From positions 1 to 21,605 of IMG/VR virus record IMGVR_UViG_3300043543_000126: DNA of 21,605 bases. One strand, 5' to 3'. Positions 12,718-20,183 of this stretch are shown here, piece by piece (positions within the stretch are counted from its first letter, which is position 1; each line of letters begins with the position of its first letter). The position numbers were made by a program, and so were the translations under genes. The stretch comes from a virus. The notes under the pieces are model-generated. The model made no database searches, was not told the DNA's origin, and saw nothing but the letters and a program-made list of their open reading frames with translations.

Positions 12718-13902
12718 TCACGAAATCCTAAGCCAGAGGGTGGCAGCATCGCCAGAAGCTAAAGGTGGATCGCTGTAATCTGTCGCGCTCCGCCTACCCA
12801 TGCAGCGCCACGTCCCGCTAGGAGTGCCACTTGCGTTTGTGAACGAAGCTGACTGTGTGATCGCGCCCGCGTACCTCAAGCTGCTGCCTGCGAGCGTGGC
12901 ACCCGCTTCGTAAGTCGCAGTGTTCTGCGGTTGAAGGAACGCATATGTGCCGACTGCGCCAACAGCGGCTCCTGCCATCAGCGCCAAGATATTCGCTGTG
13001 GTTTGGGACGCAGCTATCGCTGCGTCCATCTGCGACTTGCGAACCGCCTCGTTCGCGCCCACCGCATCCGCACCAAGCGACACCGCCCCCGACGTGGTGA
13101 CGAGCCCAGTGGCACGGTTGATGGTGACTACCGCGCCGATGTCGCCGCCCGCATCGTCGGCACGGCGAATGGAAAAATTGGAACCGGCGTTGCTGCCAGT
13201 CTCCGAATCGCCGGTCATGCCGATCATCCACCGCAGCGAACCGCTGCGGTGGATAGCCACGCGCCCAAAACTGGTGCCCGTGGCATTTATCACGAACTGC
13301 GGTGTCGGTCGCTCATAGGTCAACCCGTTGCCTGTGAAGACGGTCGGCTGATCCGGTCGAGCATACCGCGCATCGCACGCATCACGATTCATCGCATGTC
13401 CGCCAGCCGTAGCAGCTGGAACGGTCTGAACAGCCGTGAAGTTGTTGTTGACGTTCTTCAGCGCGTAGTTGGTGAAATTCGACATGCGGAGCGTGCCGCT
13501 GGAGAACTCCAGGCCGGACCCTAGGGCGATAGCCTCTGCGATTCCGGTTCCGGACGAGAATCGACCCAACAATTGATTCTGCGCAATAGTCTTGGGCCCC
13601 TGAACGAACCGATCCATCGTGCCTGCGGTTGCAAGCATCTGCACGGCGGACCCCGCAGGAAACGCTTGCGCCGTCGTGCCTTCCTGGGCGCGGAGGACAG
13701 TGAGAACATCCGCAGCGCGCCCGGTGCAGTGCATGACTTCGCGCGTCGTGCCCGACTGCACGACAATCACGAACACCTGCCCAGCCGCAGGGTTCGGAAA
13801 GCGCGCGCCGTGCCCGGCGGACACGGTCAGAGTGGTAGCGCCAGCCGATATGCCGGAATCCAGCACCGATACGGCGATGTTTGCGAACAGGAACTCCGTC
13901 AT
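12718..13902 (-). CDS. Tail fibre-like protein, 394 aa
   Basis: The N-terminal part (about 1-110) has a beta strand set with LTVSAGHGARFP and EVMHCTGRAADVLTVLRAQEGTTA, familiar from phage fibre attachment regions. A central YALKNVNNNF, then GGHAMNRDACDARYA (170-184) matches the segments often seen in fibre shafts. The C-terminus contains YEAGATLAGSSLRYAG and SGTPSGTWRCMGR, the receptor-binding tip style of many short fibres. It is followed by a chaperone-like gene, which supports a fibre. The host receptor cannot be predicted. It starts 3 bp after the upstream stop, with GGAG 8 nt before ATG. Confidence 0.75.
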   Translation of the reverse strand: MTEFLFANIAVSVLDSGISAGATTLTVSAGHGARFPNPAAGQVFVIVVQSGTTREVMHCTGRAADVLTVLRAQEGTTAQAFPAGSAVQMLATAGTMDRFVQGPKTIAQNQLLGRFSSGTGIAEAIALGSGLEFSSGTLRMSNFTNYALKNVNNNFTAVQTVPAATAGGHAMNRDACDARYARPDQPTVFTGNGLTYERPTPQFVINATGTSFGRVAIHRSGSLRWMIGMTGDSETGSNAGSNFSIRRADDAGGDIGAVVTINRATGLVTTSGAVSLGADAVGANEAVRKSQMDAAIAASQTTANILALMAGAAVGAVGTYAFLQPQNTATYEAGATLAGSSLRYAGAITQSASFTNASGTPSGTWRCMGRRSATDYSDPPLASGDAATLWLRIS

Positions 13903-14897: not shown

Positions 14898-14967
14898 CAG
14901 ATTCCTCCTGGGGCTGCGAATCTGGAACAGCCTGGGCCGCCCTGCCCAGTGTAGGACAAGGCAGCCC

Positions 14968-14992
14968 AAAAAGCCAGCCAGATCAGGCAGGC
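14968..14992 (-). terminator. Weak terminator-like hairpin after the coat gene
   Basis: In the - strand RNA a 7-nt arm GCCUGCC pairs with GGCUGGC (one U-U mismatch), the loop UGAUCU contains the coat stop codon, and UUUUU follows. A second candidate lies just beyond (14934-14967): GGGCUGCC pairs with GGCGGCCC across an 18-nt loop, without a U-run. The first resembles a partial terminator behind a strongly expressed capsid gene. Confidence 0.4.
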
Positions 14993-15966
14993 GGGGTGAA
15001 GGCGCCCGCCGCCGGGATGGCGTACAGTTGCGCGTAGGCAGTCGGATCGACGACCTGACGGCCGTAAACCTGGAGCCCGCGCATCCGATCCGCGAAGGAC
15101 GACTCGCCACGGATGACGTCGAGCTTCGTCATCTGCGATGCGAACGTCAGCGCGTTCTTGTGGCCAGCATAGATGTACGTCGCGCCGTCCGCATCGTTGC
15201 CGCCCACACCGTCCGTCGCCGAGGTCGGCAGCAGGTTGGACGAGTAGAGCGTGAAGCGGTCCACCATGCCCAGGCGACCATTCCGCATGACAGACGTGGA
15301 GTCGCCAACGAGCGACGCATCACGCAGGTCCGAGCGCTTCAGCAGCGACGCGGCCCAGGCCGGCATGACGATCCAGCGTCCCGTCTCCGGAACGTTCTGC
15401 TCGTCCAGCACCTGCCCGAGAAACACGATGTAGTCGAGGATGTTGTTCCGCGAAAGCTGGACCGGCGCACCGTTCGTGCCAAGGTTCAAGTTCTGCGAGA
15501 TGCGGCCCGCGCCGGTGCCACGGTTGCGCACCGCCGCCTTGTTGACCAGGAAGACGAGAACATCACGATCGATCTCGATCTTCATCTGCTCGGAGGCTTC
15601 CGCCGCCCACTCGTCAGTGATCTTGACGTCCATCTGCTTCTTGAGGACGTCGTCGATCTCCATGCCGAAGTACTTGCCCTGGTCGATGTTCATCTCGACG
15701 AGGCCGATGGACGGGCGCTCGTAGATCAGACCCATGTGGGACTCGTAGTTCCGGATGGTAATGGCCGGACGCTGGCGCATCTTCACCTTGTCGCCGTAGT
15801 TCTTGATCTCACCCTCATATTCGGTGTTCGAGATCGCGGCGAGAACGGTGGTGTCGTAGAACTTCTGGATGAACTTGCCCGACCAGATTTCGGGGATGAA
15901 GACCCCCGAGTATGCCGGGTTCGGGTTGGACCCCGCGTACGGGGACGATGCGACAGGAAACGGCAC
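14983..15966 (-). CDS. Major capsid (coat) protein
   Basis: 327 residues. It reads like an HK97-fold coat: an N-terminal arm (SGVFIPEIWSGKFIQKFYDTTVLAAISNTEYEGEIKNYGDKVKMRQRP), a beta hairpin with ITIRNYESHM, then a long helix of LVEMNIDQGKYFGMEIDDVLKKQMDVKITDEWAAEASEQMKIEIDR, and a Pro/Leu-rich C-terminal region with TGRWIVMPAWAASLL and VYGRQVVDPTAYAQLYA. The 'E-N-x-D-x-G-K-Y-F-x-x-x-I-D-D' helix is what I associate with P22- and N4-like coat proteins. The start is a GTG with AAGGAGG 5 nt upstream, and it lies inside a hairpin (see 15962-15996). It lies after the scaffold gene. The whole gene has no GA(A/T)TC site, unlike its neighbours. Confidence 0.9.
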   Translation of the reverse strand: MPFPVASSPYAGSNPNPAYSGVFIPEIWSGKFIQKFYDTTVLAAISNTEYEGEIKNYGDKVKMRQRPAITIRNYESHMGLIYERPSIGLVEMNIDQGKYFGMEIDDVLKKQMDVKITDEWAAEASEQMKIEIDRDVLVFLVNKAAVRNRGTGAGRISQNLNLGTNGAPVQLSRNNILDYIVFLGQVLDEQNVPETGRWIVMPAWAASLLKRSDLRDASLVGDSTSVMRNGRLGMVDRFTLYSSNLLPTSATDGVGGNDADGATYIYAGHKNALTFASQMTKLDVIRGESSFADRMRGLQVYGRQVVDPTAYAQLYAIPAAGAFTPPA

Positions 15967-15996
15967 GGGGGCCTCCTTCGGATTCGCCCCCGTGCC
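15962..15996 (-). promoter_or_regulatory. Perfect 11-bp hairpin over the coat start codon
   Basis: GGCACGGGGGC at 15996-15986 is the exact reverse complement of GCCCCCGTGCC at 15972-15962, with a 13-nt loop. The coat GTG (15966-15964) lies in the 3' arm, while the Shine-Dalgarno GAAGGAG lies in the loop. If the hairpin forms the start codon is paired, so translation should be low until it is opened. Confidence 0.8.
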
Positions 15997-16020
15997 TGAA
16001 TCCAGGCTCGGTTACGGGGG
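15986..16020 (-). promoter_or_regulatory. Alternative hairpin excluding the coat start hairpin
   Basis: CCCCCGU (16020-16014) pairs with ACGGGGG (15993-15987), around an inner hairpin GCCUG-GAUU-CAGGC (16007-15994). This uses the same G-rich segment as the start-codon hairpin, so the two folds cannot coexist. This fold leaves the coat start free. Confidence 0.65.
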
Positions 16021-16035
16021 CTGGGTTGCGCTCAT
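16012..16035 (-). CDS. Possible leader peptide MSATQPP
   Basis: ATG AGC GCA ACC CAG CCC CCG TAA. The seven-residue frame ends in two Pro codons and a stop, a context known to slow ribosomes. It covers segment 2 of the four-segment switch before the coat gene. No clear Shine-Dalgarno is seen, only GGGGGT about 11 nt upstream. So a real translated leader is a hypothesis. Confidence 0.25.
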   Translation of the reverse strand: MSATQPP

Positions 16036-16053
16036 GTCGAAACTTGACCCCCG
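16015..16053 (-). promoter_or_regulatory. Upstream hairpin (segment 1 with 2)
   Basis: CGGGGG (16053-16048) can pair with CCCCCG (16020-16015), with the possible leader start codon in the 27-nt loop. This pairing would block the alternative hairpin and so favour the start-codon hairpin. Together the four segments have the 1:2, 2:3, 3:4 logic of an attenuator. Confidence 0.5.
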
Positions 16054-16119
16054 AAGACCAAAGCCCGAAGACTAAAGCCCGAAGACTAAAGCCCGAAGAC
16101 TAAAGCCCGAAGACTTCAG
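16050..16119. repeat. Five tandem 14-bp units between scaffold and coat genes
   Basis: CCCGAAGACTAAAG occurs at 16064, 16078 and 16092 exactly, with one-base variant at 16050 and a diverged copy at 16106 (ending CTTCAG). The array begins at the end of the scaffold gene, whose last codons and stop lie in the fifth unit. In the - strand RNA each unit gives AGUC-UUCG-GGCU, a 4- to 5-bp stem with a cUUCGg tetraloop, a very stable RNA element. Confidence 0.9.
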
Positions 16120-17279
16120 ATCCGAACCCGTCCTTCGCGCTGCGCAGCGGCCATCTCGTATTCGAGCGCCTTCTGCCGAGCCGGGTCGTCTCGGTACGCA
16201 CCCCGGCCGATTTCGGCATAGGTGCGCTTGATCTCGTCGAGGGACCAGATTTTCGCAGCGGGCGGCTTCTGCGGGAACAGACGCGGGCTGCGCGCCTTGC
16301 CGGGGGCGGCGAAGTCCATGAGGTCCGTGGGCTCGTCCGCGTCCTCCTGCCCCGCTGCCGCCCTGGGGTCGTACCCAGTGGCGGGGGCGGGCTGGGGAGC
16401 GCCGGAGCGCACCGAAGTCCTCCGAACCTGCGGCCCGGAACCACCCCTCTGGCTGAGGTAGGTCCGAACGAAGGCGGCTGTGGATTCCCCATCATACATT
16501 CCAACCGCTTCGTCAAGAACTTCTTTCCGAGTGCGGCGGAGAAGCGGATCGTATTCCGCGAGCCAGGACTGGAACTCCGGGGTCGGGTCGATATCCCGCC
16601 ACTCCGGAATCTGCGCATCGAGGAAAGCGAAAAACCGCTCGCGCTTCGCCGCTTCCGTCTCCTCCCTGAAGACGGTGGCGGTACCCCGGAGCGATTCGAT
16701 CTGCGCCATGAGTCGGGACTCCAGCGCCTTGAGCGCCGGGAGGACCGCCACCAACGACTGACGCTTCACCACATCGAGCAGGTCGTCGCCGTAGGCGGTG
16801 CGTTCCTCGTCCGTGATGGACGGCGCGTCCGGAACCGGAGGGAGCGACGCAGCGCGAAGCTCGTCGATCTGCTTAGTCAGCGCTTCGATCTGCTGGGTCA
16901 GGCGCTTGGTGTCGGCGGTGTGTCGCCCACGCCACGTCGAAAGCTCGTGCTGCGCCTGCGCGAGCTTGCGCTTCAGGTCTTCTTCAGTGTCCTGGGTGGT
17001 CTGGGTGATCTGGGTGGTCTGGGTGGTCTGGGTGGTCTGGGAAGGGGCCGACTGGGCGCGCTCCGAAGCGGATTCGCCCGATGTCAGCGAATCCTGGGCA
17101 GCGGGGGCGGGCGACCCCCCACCAAAGCCACCCGCCCCCTCCGCTTCCGCAGGGGCGCGGGAGCCGCCGGCCTGGGAAGCGGATTCCACGGAACTAAGAA
17201 GTTCAGCCTGCAAGGCTTCCGCACGCCGCCCGGCTTCGCGGACCGACTCGGGAATCTCGACTTCGTAGCTCTGACTCAT
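16116..17279 (-). CDS. Scaffolding protein
   Basis: 387 residues, located directly before the coat gene. It has a short N-terminal helix (about 10-35), a low-complexity Ala/Gly/Ser spacer, and a Thr-Thr-Gln repeat (about 80-96). A clear coiled coil follows (about 98-143, EEDLKRKLAQAQHELS and KRLTQQIEALTKQIDEL). A helical central region (about 155-265) and a disordered, basic C-terminus ending in REGRVRI complete it. Scaffolds guide coat assembly and leave the shell; the basic C-terminal end usually binds coat. Position and make-up, not homology, support this call. AGGGA lies 9 nt before ATG, and the last codons enter the 14-bp repeat array. Confidence 0.8.
   Translation of the reverse strand: MSQSYEVEIPESVREAGRRAEALQAELLSSVESASQAGGSRAPAEAEGAGGFGGGSPAPAAQDSLTSGESASERAQSAPSQTTQTTQTTQITQTTQDTEEDLKRKLAQAQHELSTWRGRHTADTKRLTQQIEALTKQIDELRAASLPPVPDAPSITDEERTAYGDDLLDVVKRQSLVAVLPALKALESRLMAQIESLRGTATVFREETEAAKRERFFAFLDAQIPEWRDIDPTPEFQSWLAEYDPLLRRTRKEVLDEAVGMYDGESTAAFVRTYLSQRGGSGPQVRRTSVRSGAPQPAPATGYDPRAAAGQEDADEPTDLMDFAAPGKARSPRLFPQKPPAAKIWSLDEIKRTYAEIGRGAYRDDPARQKALEYEMAAAQREGRVRI
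16991..17040. repeat. 9-bp tandem repeat (Thr-Thr-Gln coding)
   Basis: About five copies of a CTGGGTGGT unit encode a Thr-Gln repeat just before the coiled coil of the scaffold protein. One unit has an Ile codon instead of Thr. It looks like a flexible spacer produced by slippage. Confidence 0.85.
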
Positions 17280-17872: not shown

Positions 17873-20183
17873 TCGTGACGCCGCCGGGGGAGACAGGCTC
17901 GCCAGGCTTGGGGGCGGGAGGGGCGGGAGGAGCGGCATTGTCCACCCCCACGCCTTTCGGGGGCTTGACGGGACCGCCCGGAGCCCCACCCGAACCCCCA
18001 GGACCGCCCTGCGCCGTCATTGCGGCTGCCTCCTGCTGCATCTTCTCGCGGCGCTCCAGTTCCTCATCGGGCGGGATCATCGTCTCGCCCTCCATCCCGA
18101 TTGCCTCAGCCACCTGCCGCAACAGAACGGCACGGCCGCGCATCCCCATGATCGCAGCGTCCATCGGATTCGTCGTGGCCTGAAGAAGCTCGATGGCACG
18201 CTGGCGCTCCGTCTCCTTCTGGATCGCCACGGCGACGCCCTTCACCGTGATTCGCTCGTCACCACGGAATCGGCCTTCCTTGTCGGTCAACACGACAAGT
18301 TCGTGCAACTGGTGAACGACCGGCTTGATGATGTCGTTGTCGATGTTCGCGGCCACCGTCTGAAGAATCTTGCTGGCGTTGCTCATGAGCATCGCCAGCC
18401 CGGAGGCCGTCCTGCCAGCGCCGCCCATGCGGTCCGAACCCGTGATGTATCGCGGAATCGCGCTCAACTCATCCGCCATCTGCGTGAACTTCTCATACAC
18501 AGCAAGAAGAATCTGCGCGTTGGAGTTCGGCTGGAAGAAATCCACGGGGCGCTGGTTGTTGCCAGCCGCCATGCCGTTCTGCGGCAACGTAACCTTCCAC
18601 CGCTTCCACGGATAGAAAGAATCACCATCCTCGTCGTCCGACAGCATGTCCTCGTTCACGATCACCTGCGGACCGGACGACAGAGCCATGTTGTTGTTCA
18701 GGGACCGGAGCGTAGCGTTGCATGTCTCCTGGATGTCGGCAAGGATGTCAGGAAGCGCGTTGCCGACAAGGGTTCCGGGCACCTTCTCGAAGCTGGTGAC
18801 GTAGTAGGGATTGCGGTTGCTCGGACTCGGATTCATCTGAATCTTGATGATGTGGCGCCCGATCATCCACACCTGCACCGAGTAGTCGCGGTCCGGGTCC
18901 TTGATCTTCTTGTGCGACCACCCATGCTCACGAAGAACGCGCCCCTGAACGTTGCCGGTGAACAGCAGGCAATCGATCAGACCCGTCTCGTTGCTGCTCG
19001 GGCTCTCACGATTCTCAAGCCCCGCCTGGATTTCCTGCGTGCCCAACATGCAGTCTTCGGTGTAGCCGTTGGCGTAGTCCTGCAACACGGACCGGATCGC
19101 GTCCTCGTCGTACCCAGGCAACCCCAGAAGAGCGTTGAGTTCCGTACGGTGGTAGCGGATCAGTTCGATGGTGTTGGTGTACCGGATGTCGGTGGAACCC
19201 GGCAGCCACCAGAAGTCGAACGGACTGACGCGCTCCCACTGCATCTGTGGGACGTTCACCTGCACCGCCTTGCGATCCACCCACTTGATCGTCGGCACGA
19301 TGCGAACAACAGGCCCCTTCAGCACCGCGAACGGGAACAACGGAAGGTCGGACAGGACTTCCGCCAATGCGTCGTAGAATCCACCCTCCACAAGATAGTC
19401 GTCGAGAACGCGCTCGTGTTCCGCGGCCTCCTGGCGTGCCCGCTTGCGGGCAGCGATGCGGGCTTCCGCCATCAGCACGCGACGCCGCTCGTTGATCTCG
19501 TCGATGGACGGGCCCTCGGGGTTCGGGACGGGGTTCGGGGCGGAGTTCGGGGCGGGATTCGTACCCATGCCAGAATCGGCAGGAGCGCGCATCCCGCCAA
19601 TCGGGCCGGACGGAGCCGCTGGAGGAGCGGGAGGCGCAGGAGGTGCGGGAAAGGGGTTGATCGTGCCGTCCGGTCCGATTCCCATCTTCCCAGCAAGCAT
19701 CACGGTCTGCGCTTCGACGGCGATCAACTGGTCGATCTTGTCGGTGATAGAATCCGGAAGCTCGGGGTCGGGCGTAGGCTCCACGGACCACGACTTGGCG
19801 CCCGTGAGGTAGATGTCGCGCAGCAGGGACGTCGCACCACGGCACTTCACCGAGACGATCCGGGCGTAGATGCGGCTGCCGCCGAACTTCTCAATCTCGG
19901 CGAGCACATCGGGGTCGTATTCGCCGTTGAACATGCGGAGCGCGCGGATGAGCCGGCTGTCCCAACCGTTCGCGCTCATCCTATGGCGCTTCATGAGGTC
20001 GAACTGCGACCGGATGTACTCCCCAAGAGCGGTCAACTGCTGCTCGTTGGCTCCCATGAGGGCGTCCACAGCCTGCTTGTCGGCCATGATCGCGGCGTTT
20101 TCGGCACCCGTCACCTGATCCGGCGTGGCGACACGCATGAGCCCCAGTGAGTTTGTCCCTTGGAGGGGAATCGAATCGCTCAT
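17859..20183 (-). CDS. Portal protein, 774 aa
   Basis: The length is close to the 725-residue P22 portal and well above most other portals. Residues 1-165 and 230-560 carry portal-like alpha/beta sequence such as GGSRIYARIVSVKCRGATSLLRDIYL, LPLFPFAVLKGPVVR, FDFWWLPGSTDIRYTN and the DILADIQETCNATLRSLNNNMALSSGPQVIVNEDM region. A helical stretch with ELSAIPRYITGSDRMGGAGRTASGLAMLMSNASK follows. Residues about 166-226 are a Pro/Ala/Asn-rich insert, and about 720-774 form a Gly/Pro-rich tail. The portal forms the dodecameric ring through which DNA is packaged and ejected. GGAG lies 7 nt before ATG. It heads the leftward operon. Confidence 0.9.
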   Translation of the reverse strand: MSDSIPLQGTNSLGLMRVATPDQVTGAENAAIMADKQAVDALMGANEQQLTALGEYIRSQFDLMKRHRMSANGWDSRLIRALRMFNGEYDPDVLAEIEKFGGSRIYARIVSVKCRGATSLLRDIYLTGAKSWSVEPTPDPELPDSITDKIDQLIAVEAQTVMLAGKMGIGPDGTINPFPAPPAPPAPPAAPSGPIGGMRAPADSGMGTNPAPNSAPNPVPNPEGPSIDEINERRRVLMAEARIAARKRARQEAAEHERVLDDYLVEGGFYDALAEVLSDLPLFPFAVLKGPVVRIVPTIKWVDRKAVQVNVPQMQWERVSPFDFWWLPGSTDIRYTNTIELIRYHRTELNALLGLPGYDEDAIRSVLQDYANGYTEDCMLGTQEIQAGLENRESPSSNETGLIDCLLFTGNVQGRVLREHGWSHKKIKDPDRDYSVQVWMIGRHIIKIQMNPSPSNRNPYYVTSFEKVPGTLVGNALPDILADIQETCNATLRSLNNNMALSSGPQVIVNEDMLSDDEDGDSFYPWKRWKVTLPQNGMAAGNNQRPVDFFQPNSNAQILLAVYEKFTQMADELSAIPRYITGSDRMGGAGRTASGLAMLMSNASKILQTVAANIDNDIIKPVVHQLHELVVLTDKEGRFRGDERITVKGVAVAIQKETERQRAIELLQATTNPMDAAIMGMRGRAVLLRQVAEAIGMEGETMIPPDEELERREKMQQEAAAMTAQGGPGGSGGAPGGPVKPPKGVGVDNAAPPAPPAPKPGEPVSPGGVTNVVQ
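19506..19688 (-). other. Pro/Ala/Asn-rich insert in the portal
   Basis: It encodes about 60 residues of the portal: a PAPPAPPAPP run, then Asn-Pro repeats made by a GGGTTCGGGGC-type tandem DNA repeat. The segment on either side is ordinary portal sequence, so this is likely a surface loop expanded by repeat growth. Confidence 0.75.

Follow-up and report, generated by a model that had tools for sequence, protein, structure and literature searches.

The window, by which we mean the whole stretch of DNA analysed, is a 21.6-kb phage fragment (IMG/VR virus record) whose - strand carries a portal-like gene, a gene in scaffold position and a major capsid protein (MCP) gene. The last of these, called the coat gene in an earlier note on this DNA, is indeed a major capsid gene by its match to PHROG 267, and its matches comprised 368 phage records, with more than 240 distinct contig starts. 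The leader, from scaffold stop to capsid start, measures 149 nt in the window, and G+C content in the region is 67%. The features are listed below together with their state in the closest relative (L002); segments 1 to 4 are the pieces into which the earlier note had divided the leader.

14983..15966, - strand: MCP gene, GTG start, 327 aa (PHROG 267 major head protein, E 4e-54)
15962..15972, - strand: 3' strand of the RBS hairpin (segment 4), GCCCCCGTGCC, holding the GTG; perfect 11-bp inverted repeat; GCCCCCGTG kept in L002
15973..15985, - strand: hairpin loop GAATCCGAAGGAG, 13 nt, carrying the Shine-Dalgarno (SD) sequence; GAATCCGA kept beside the 5' arm in L002
15986..15996, - strand: 5' strand of the RBS hairpin (segment 3), full arm GGCACGGGGGC at 15996-15986 and, within it, ACGGGGGC at 15993-15986; CACGGGGGC kept in L002
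16012..16035, - strand: mini-ORF MSATQPP*, with no evident SD, not conserved (absent from L002)
16014..16021, - strand: segment 2, alternative partner of segment 3 (8 bp), not conserved (absent from L002)
16048..16053, - strand: segment 1, pairing with segment 2 or 4, not conserved; 1:2 at chance level
16050..16115, - strand: 14-nt tandem repeat AGTCTTCGGGCTTT, 4.7 copies, 98% matches, between scaffold stop and hairpin; absent from L002
16116..17279, - strand: gene 5' of the MCP gene, probable scaffolding protein by position; phrog_13678 (unknown function), E 5e-22

The 14-nt repeat, which the earlier note had not mentioned, takes up the 5' portion of the capsid leader. Each unit could form a small hairpin with a UUCG loop (array fold -25 kcal/mol), and in L002 the comparable position is taken by another short repeat, CGGCTTGGAC. 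Further short tandem repeats were seen at 4-127, 2231-2738, 16992-17041 and 19517-19561, most of them within predicted coding regions. Two 11-bp hairpins with a loop of up to 20 nt are present in the window, namely the one at the capsid start and a palindromic hairpin at 13225-13254 (ATCCACCGCAGCG and its complement, with a short loop) inside the ORF 12718-13902.

The hairpin at the capsid start

All four segments lie on the - strand where the earlier note had placed them (CGGGGG, 16053-16048; CCCCCGT, 16020-16014; ACGGGGGC, 15993-15986; GCCCCCGTGCC, 15972-15962). The perfect 11-bp hairpin that it described between segments 3 and 4 is also present, with the GTG start (15966-15964) in the 3' strand and the SD (AAGGAGG, 15978-15972) in the loop. 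The 49-nt element 15955-16003 folds at -32.8 kcal/mol (z -5.47), and an 11-nt complement to segment 4 arose in 0/2000 leader shuffles. The start is thus held in a stable helix, the arrangement of RBS-sequestering hairpins, in which the SD and/or the start is so placed; a gathering-score search of the window against Rfam 15 matched no family. Furthermore, the UCC of the loop may pair with the GGA of the SD. Six pairs can also form between GGAUUC and GAAUCC in both the window and L002, so that an H-type pseudoknot is possible, with the 5' arm in its loop, and pairing with the SD accounts for the conserved UCC just as well.

In the window, 15.3 kcal/mol is needed to open the -16..+10 footprint (15-19 over the start region), which is mid-rank among the 12 SD-led gene starts of this genome; hence the capsid start is not unusually closed for such G+C-rich DNA. 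A duplex test with the coding sequence held fixed gave a weaker result, with p 0.027 for the window and p 0.72 for L002, where it did not register the stem.

In L002, the MCP is 87% identical at the amino acid level and 4-fold degenerate sites are 61% identical (91/150), showing that silent positions have much diverged between the two. The leader of L002 is 85 nt long and mostly unalignable to that of the window, and what is kept comprises CACGGGGGC-GAATCCGA (17/17, with one 1-nt indel) and AGGAGGCCCCCGTG; the leader blocks CACGGGGGC-[U]-GAAUCCGA and AGGAGGCCCCCGUG are the same in both except for one inserted base. The resulting stem, CCACGGGGGC/GCCCCCGUGG, has 10 bp and includes one compensatory change, by which the window pair C15963-G15995 becomes G-C, with codon 2 altered too. 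The helix is therefore maintained, as seen in two sequences, the window and L002. The hairpin loop of L002 is longer (~59 nt), its fold reaches -54.6 kcal/mol (z -4.3), and its start region costs 20-30 kcal/mol to open (reaching 29-30) vs 15-19 in the window, so that the L002 start is unusually closed. In a DNA pattern scan with ACGGGGGC-GAATCC, L002 was the only one among the matches listed with the companion arm beside a capsid start.

Start-site hairpins in related capsid genes

For the close set we took the 16 distinct capsid starts that are at least 64% identical to the window; they represent perhaps six lineages, so that counts among them are not independent. In 7/16 of these the start is enclosed or overlapped by a perfect helix that passes the shuffle threshold (p<0.01), and about 6% of the more distant MCP starts (n=226) passed p<0.05, as expected by chance. 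The start-enclosing helices of the close sub-lineages are non-homologous, with unrelated sequences. One group (L003, L006, L007 and L137) has a GCCGCGATAGG/CCTATCGCGGC stem in which GCCGCGATAGG pairs with codons 4-7. It also has an inner hairpin and a hairpin of SD and AUG in which pairs vary compatibly, two of them with changes on both sides. In another (L008, L009, L015 and L064) the stem is GCCGCTGARCGGC/GCCGTTYAGCGGC, GCCGCTGARCGGC pairs with codons 9-13, and changes are one-sided only. L012 and L016, also of the close set, showed no significant start-enclosing stem. A long leader/coding stem predicted in the L004 group was discarded, being 94% conserved, with no covariation and a minimum free energy not below that of shuffles.

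By eye, short ORFs (MIPFII*, MIPFPIT*, MIPFNI*) were seen to overlap the scaffold stop as ATGA in L003, L006, L007 and L137. They end a few bases 5' of the start-enclosing stem, to which they could carry ribosomes; a comparable ORF of L009 has lost its start codon.

In the wider survey, a local hairpin overlapping the SD or start (p<=0.01) was present at 28/242 MCP starts (11.6%) vs 5/216 downstream gene starts (2.3%) of the same loci. In the capsid tree, many of these hairpins fall in one clade of ~29 sequences (L042 to L241), about 50% identical to the window, where a hairpin of 7-11 bp ends just 5' of the ATG and has the SD in its 3' strand. Stems within this clade are unrelated in sequence, for instance UAAGGCUCCC/GGGAGCCUUA in L348 and GUGUAGCCCCA/UGGGGCUACGC in L033. 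L183, a relative with a GTG start, has the layout of the window, with an 8-bp core, the GTG inside the stem and the SD in the loop. In the Rhizobium phage RHph_TM3_14A (L181) the leader forms a hairpin of 11 pairs, the 3' strand of which ends at -11. Covariation was counted on a sequence-only alignment in one fixed register, using 24 rows chosen partly for showing the hairpin. In this count 70.8% of cells pair vs 60.8% in shuffles, a percentage that the choice of rows favours, as it does not the comparison with downstream gene starts. Moreover, cells changed on both sides numbered 36 vs 19.7 +/- 3.6 in shuffles, and the covariation score was 0.358 vs 0.221 +/- 0.028 (0/500 shuffles), with slid registers giving 0.12-0.18. 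RNAalifold predicted no structure on the MAFFT alignment of the clade, probably because its stems are partly out of register; the fixed-register count was positive.

A covariance model of the clade (R1) left the MCP start of the window unmatched at E up to 10, the layout of the window being shifted, with the SD in the loop. The two hairpins are therefore alike in layout and possibly in role, which falls short of demonstrating a single RNA family. No loop motif within the clade was convincing (AAC, P 0.125; CAT, the best of seven tried, P 0.017).

A proposed translational gate and its rivals

The hairpin between segments 3 and 4 is a real structure with good evidence of selection. This evidence comprises its pairing potential, its conservation in L002 (two sequences on the side of the window) and the covariation seen for a comparable SD hairpin of a related but separate clade, whose layout differs (SD within the stem). 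Most likely it is a lock on the start site, a translational gate on capsid synthesis like the hairpins of T4 genes e, soc and 49, a reading in which we have moderate confidence. The opening cost alone is ordinary for the genome, so that the function of the hairpin, a lowering of capsid translation inside the cell, is inferred. In a transcript reading through from the scaffold gene, GGCACGGGGGC would pair with GCCCCCGTGCC, burying the GTG in the stem and holding the SD in the loop, partly paired with UCC; 30S binding should then be low. Such a lock would make sense by keeping coat protein low until late infection.

Tailed phages usually make more MCP than any other product, and a strong lock on its start is therefore unexpected and must be relieved somehow. 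According to the established rules of prokaryotic initiation (de Smit and van Duin), a gene should be almost silent when a hairpin of 20-30 kcal/mol covers its SD or start, so that something has to relieve the lock for the major coat protein. MS2-type local start hairpins likewise enclose the start codon together with the SD, and their stability sets translation; the stem of the window, however, is far more stable and would need active relief.

Hairpins that sequester the RBS are known for T4 e, soc, 49 and I-TevI, and in gene e long transcripts are blocked, whereas late transcripts that start near the RBS without the 5' strand are translated (PMC3014915). The hairpin of the window resembles them in that the SD and/or start of a phage gene is buried by a leader helix of a read-through transcript, and differs in that the target is a major capsid gene and in that no late promoter was found in the 5' strand. 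A search for sigma-70-type promoters found none, and late promoters of this phage may be of another type. The least certain part of the mechanism is how the hairpin opens. We think that a 5'-truncated mRNA, produced by a late start or by RNase cleavage within the 5' strand in the manner of T4 gene e, is likelier than unfolding by ribosomes translating the scaffold gene, because the distance from the scaffold stop down to the stem is 119 nt in the window and 7-97 nt in the clade with SD hairpins, the stop never lying inside the stem.

Coupling to the scaffold gene is still the simplest idea for relief and fits L002, where an outer 8-bp extension of the stem, GACGGGAU/AUCCCGUU, overlaps the scaffold stop codon UGA with its 5' strand. 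Under this reading, ribosomes that reach the end of the scaffold gene, or that reinitiate within the leader, would melt the stem, and coat synthesis would be confined to wherever scaffold is produced. That upstream ribosomes can unfold a start site is documented as a coupling mechanism, and start-site structure 3' of a co-transcribed gene is common to f1 VII/IX and this locus, but coupling in f1 was lost at a spacing of +89 nt (PMC12548453), and the 119 nt of the window lie beyond the expected unfolding range. Spacing in the clade is 7-36 nt except in L331 (78 nt) and L326 (97 nt). Three distant relatives (L085, L086 and L089) carry an anti-SD, CGCTCC, at the scaffold 3' end, ~60 nt 5' of the capsid start (complementary to the capsid SD GGAGCG, the classic coupling layout). 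On balance, coupling as the main role of the hairpin appears unlikely. Unlikely, too, is an operator, in which scaffold or coat protein would stabilise the hairpin and repress capsid translation. Capsid genes are plausible operator targets, as in the autoregulation of the P22 scaffold. The layout also resembles translational operators such as those of T4 genes 32 and 43 (PMC3014915), but the clade has no convincing loop motif, its stem sequences vary freely and the loop of the window differs. We give similarly little weight to a processing or stability hairpin without translational control, in which the MCP message would be bounded by 5' and 3' hairpins. A strong hairpin just 3' of the MCP stop does occur in 138/202 relatives, the window and L002 included, and the capsid cistron is thereby flanked by hairpins; a stabilising hairpin, however, need not bury the SD or start, and in the covarying clade it is the SD itself that forms the 3' strand. 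Chance pairing without a role, to which the 67% G+C and the typical opening cost lend themselves, is very unlikely given the shuffle tests, the compensation in L002, the enrichment over other gene starts and the covariation in relatives.

The earlier note itself had proposed a trp-type attenuator under control of a ribosome on MSATQPP, selecting 2:3 (open) or 3:4 (closed), and this we reject as the main explanation and hold to be highly improbable. The pairings 1:2, 2:3 and 3:4 can all form, as it claimed, and two of them exceed chance in leader shuffles (3:4, 11 bp, 0/2000; 2:3, 8 bp, P 0.006), whereas 1:2 does not (6 bp, P 0.42); of the three, 3:4 alone stands up, the stem at the start codon on which the note had rested most weight. 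The frame MSATQPP* does cover segment 2 (16035-16012), with its stop in frame with the capsid start. The resemblance to a trp-type leader, with G-rich and C-rich segments capable of alternative pairing and a short upstream ORF, ends there, with no conserved leader, no regulatory codon run and no terminator. MSATQPP has no evident SD and no such codon run, and no terminator hairpin with a U-run was found. L002 has neither segment 1 nor segment 2 nor the mini-ORF, so that of the complementarity and covariation that the note had suggested seeking in homologous phages, only those of 3:4 are found there. Folding, also suggested, gave a strong 3:4 hairpin and a minimum that combines 1:2 with 3:4 (-52.2 kcal/mol); with 2:3 enforced the best fold is -45.6, 6.6 worse, and the start stays covered because segment 1, which is also complementary to segment 4 (1:4, unmentioned in the note), then pairs with it. 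The alternative state thus keeps the start shut instead of freeing the expression platform. In favour of the attenuator, 2:3 with an adjoining 5-bp hairpin (GCCUG-GAUU-CAGGC) reaches -24.5 kcal/mol alone, and transcripts ending just 5' of segment 4 favour 2:3, making a brief co-transcriptional 2:3 state possible.

Returning to the start-site lock, it would work like the known RBS-sequestering phage hairpins with a capsid gene as an unusual target, and no report of start-site hairpins on capsid genes was found in the literature searched, whose coverage was partial. If the lock is true, capsid start-site hairpins would offer phages a general means of timing coat vs scaffold or of balancing the two, an idea that the covarying set makes directly testable. 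A broader proposal, which we regard as unlikely, is that a large family of uncultured phages controls the MCP by hairpins repeatedly rebuilt with unrelated sequences, the lock of the window being a bistable switch or an operator that sets the coat-to-scaffold ratio.

Post-capsid hairpins were counted where a strong hairpin lay within 110 nt of the capsid stop. The one of the window (14931-14970, - strand) has 17 pairs and is probably a terminator or attenuator, though without a T tail, and its counterpart in L002 differs in sequence.
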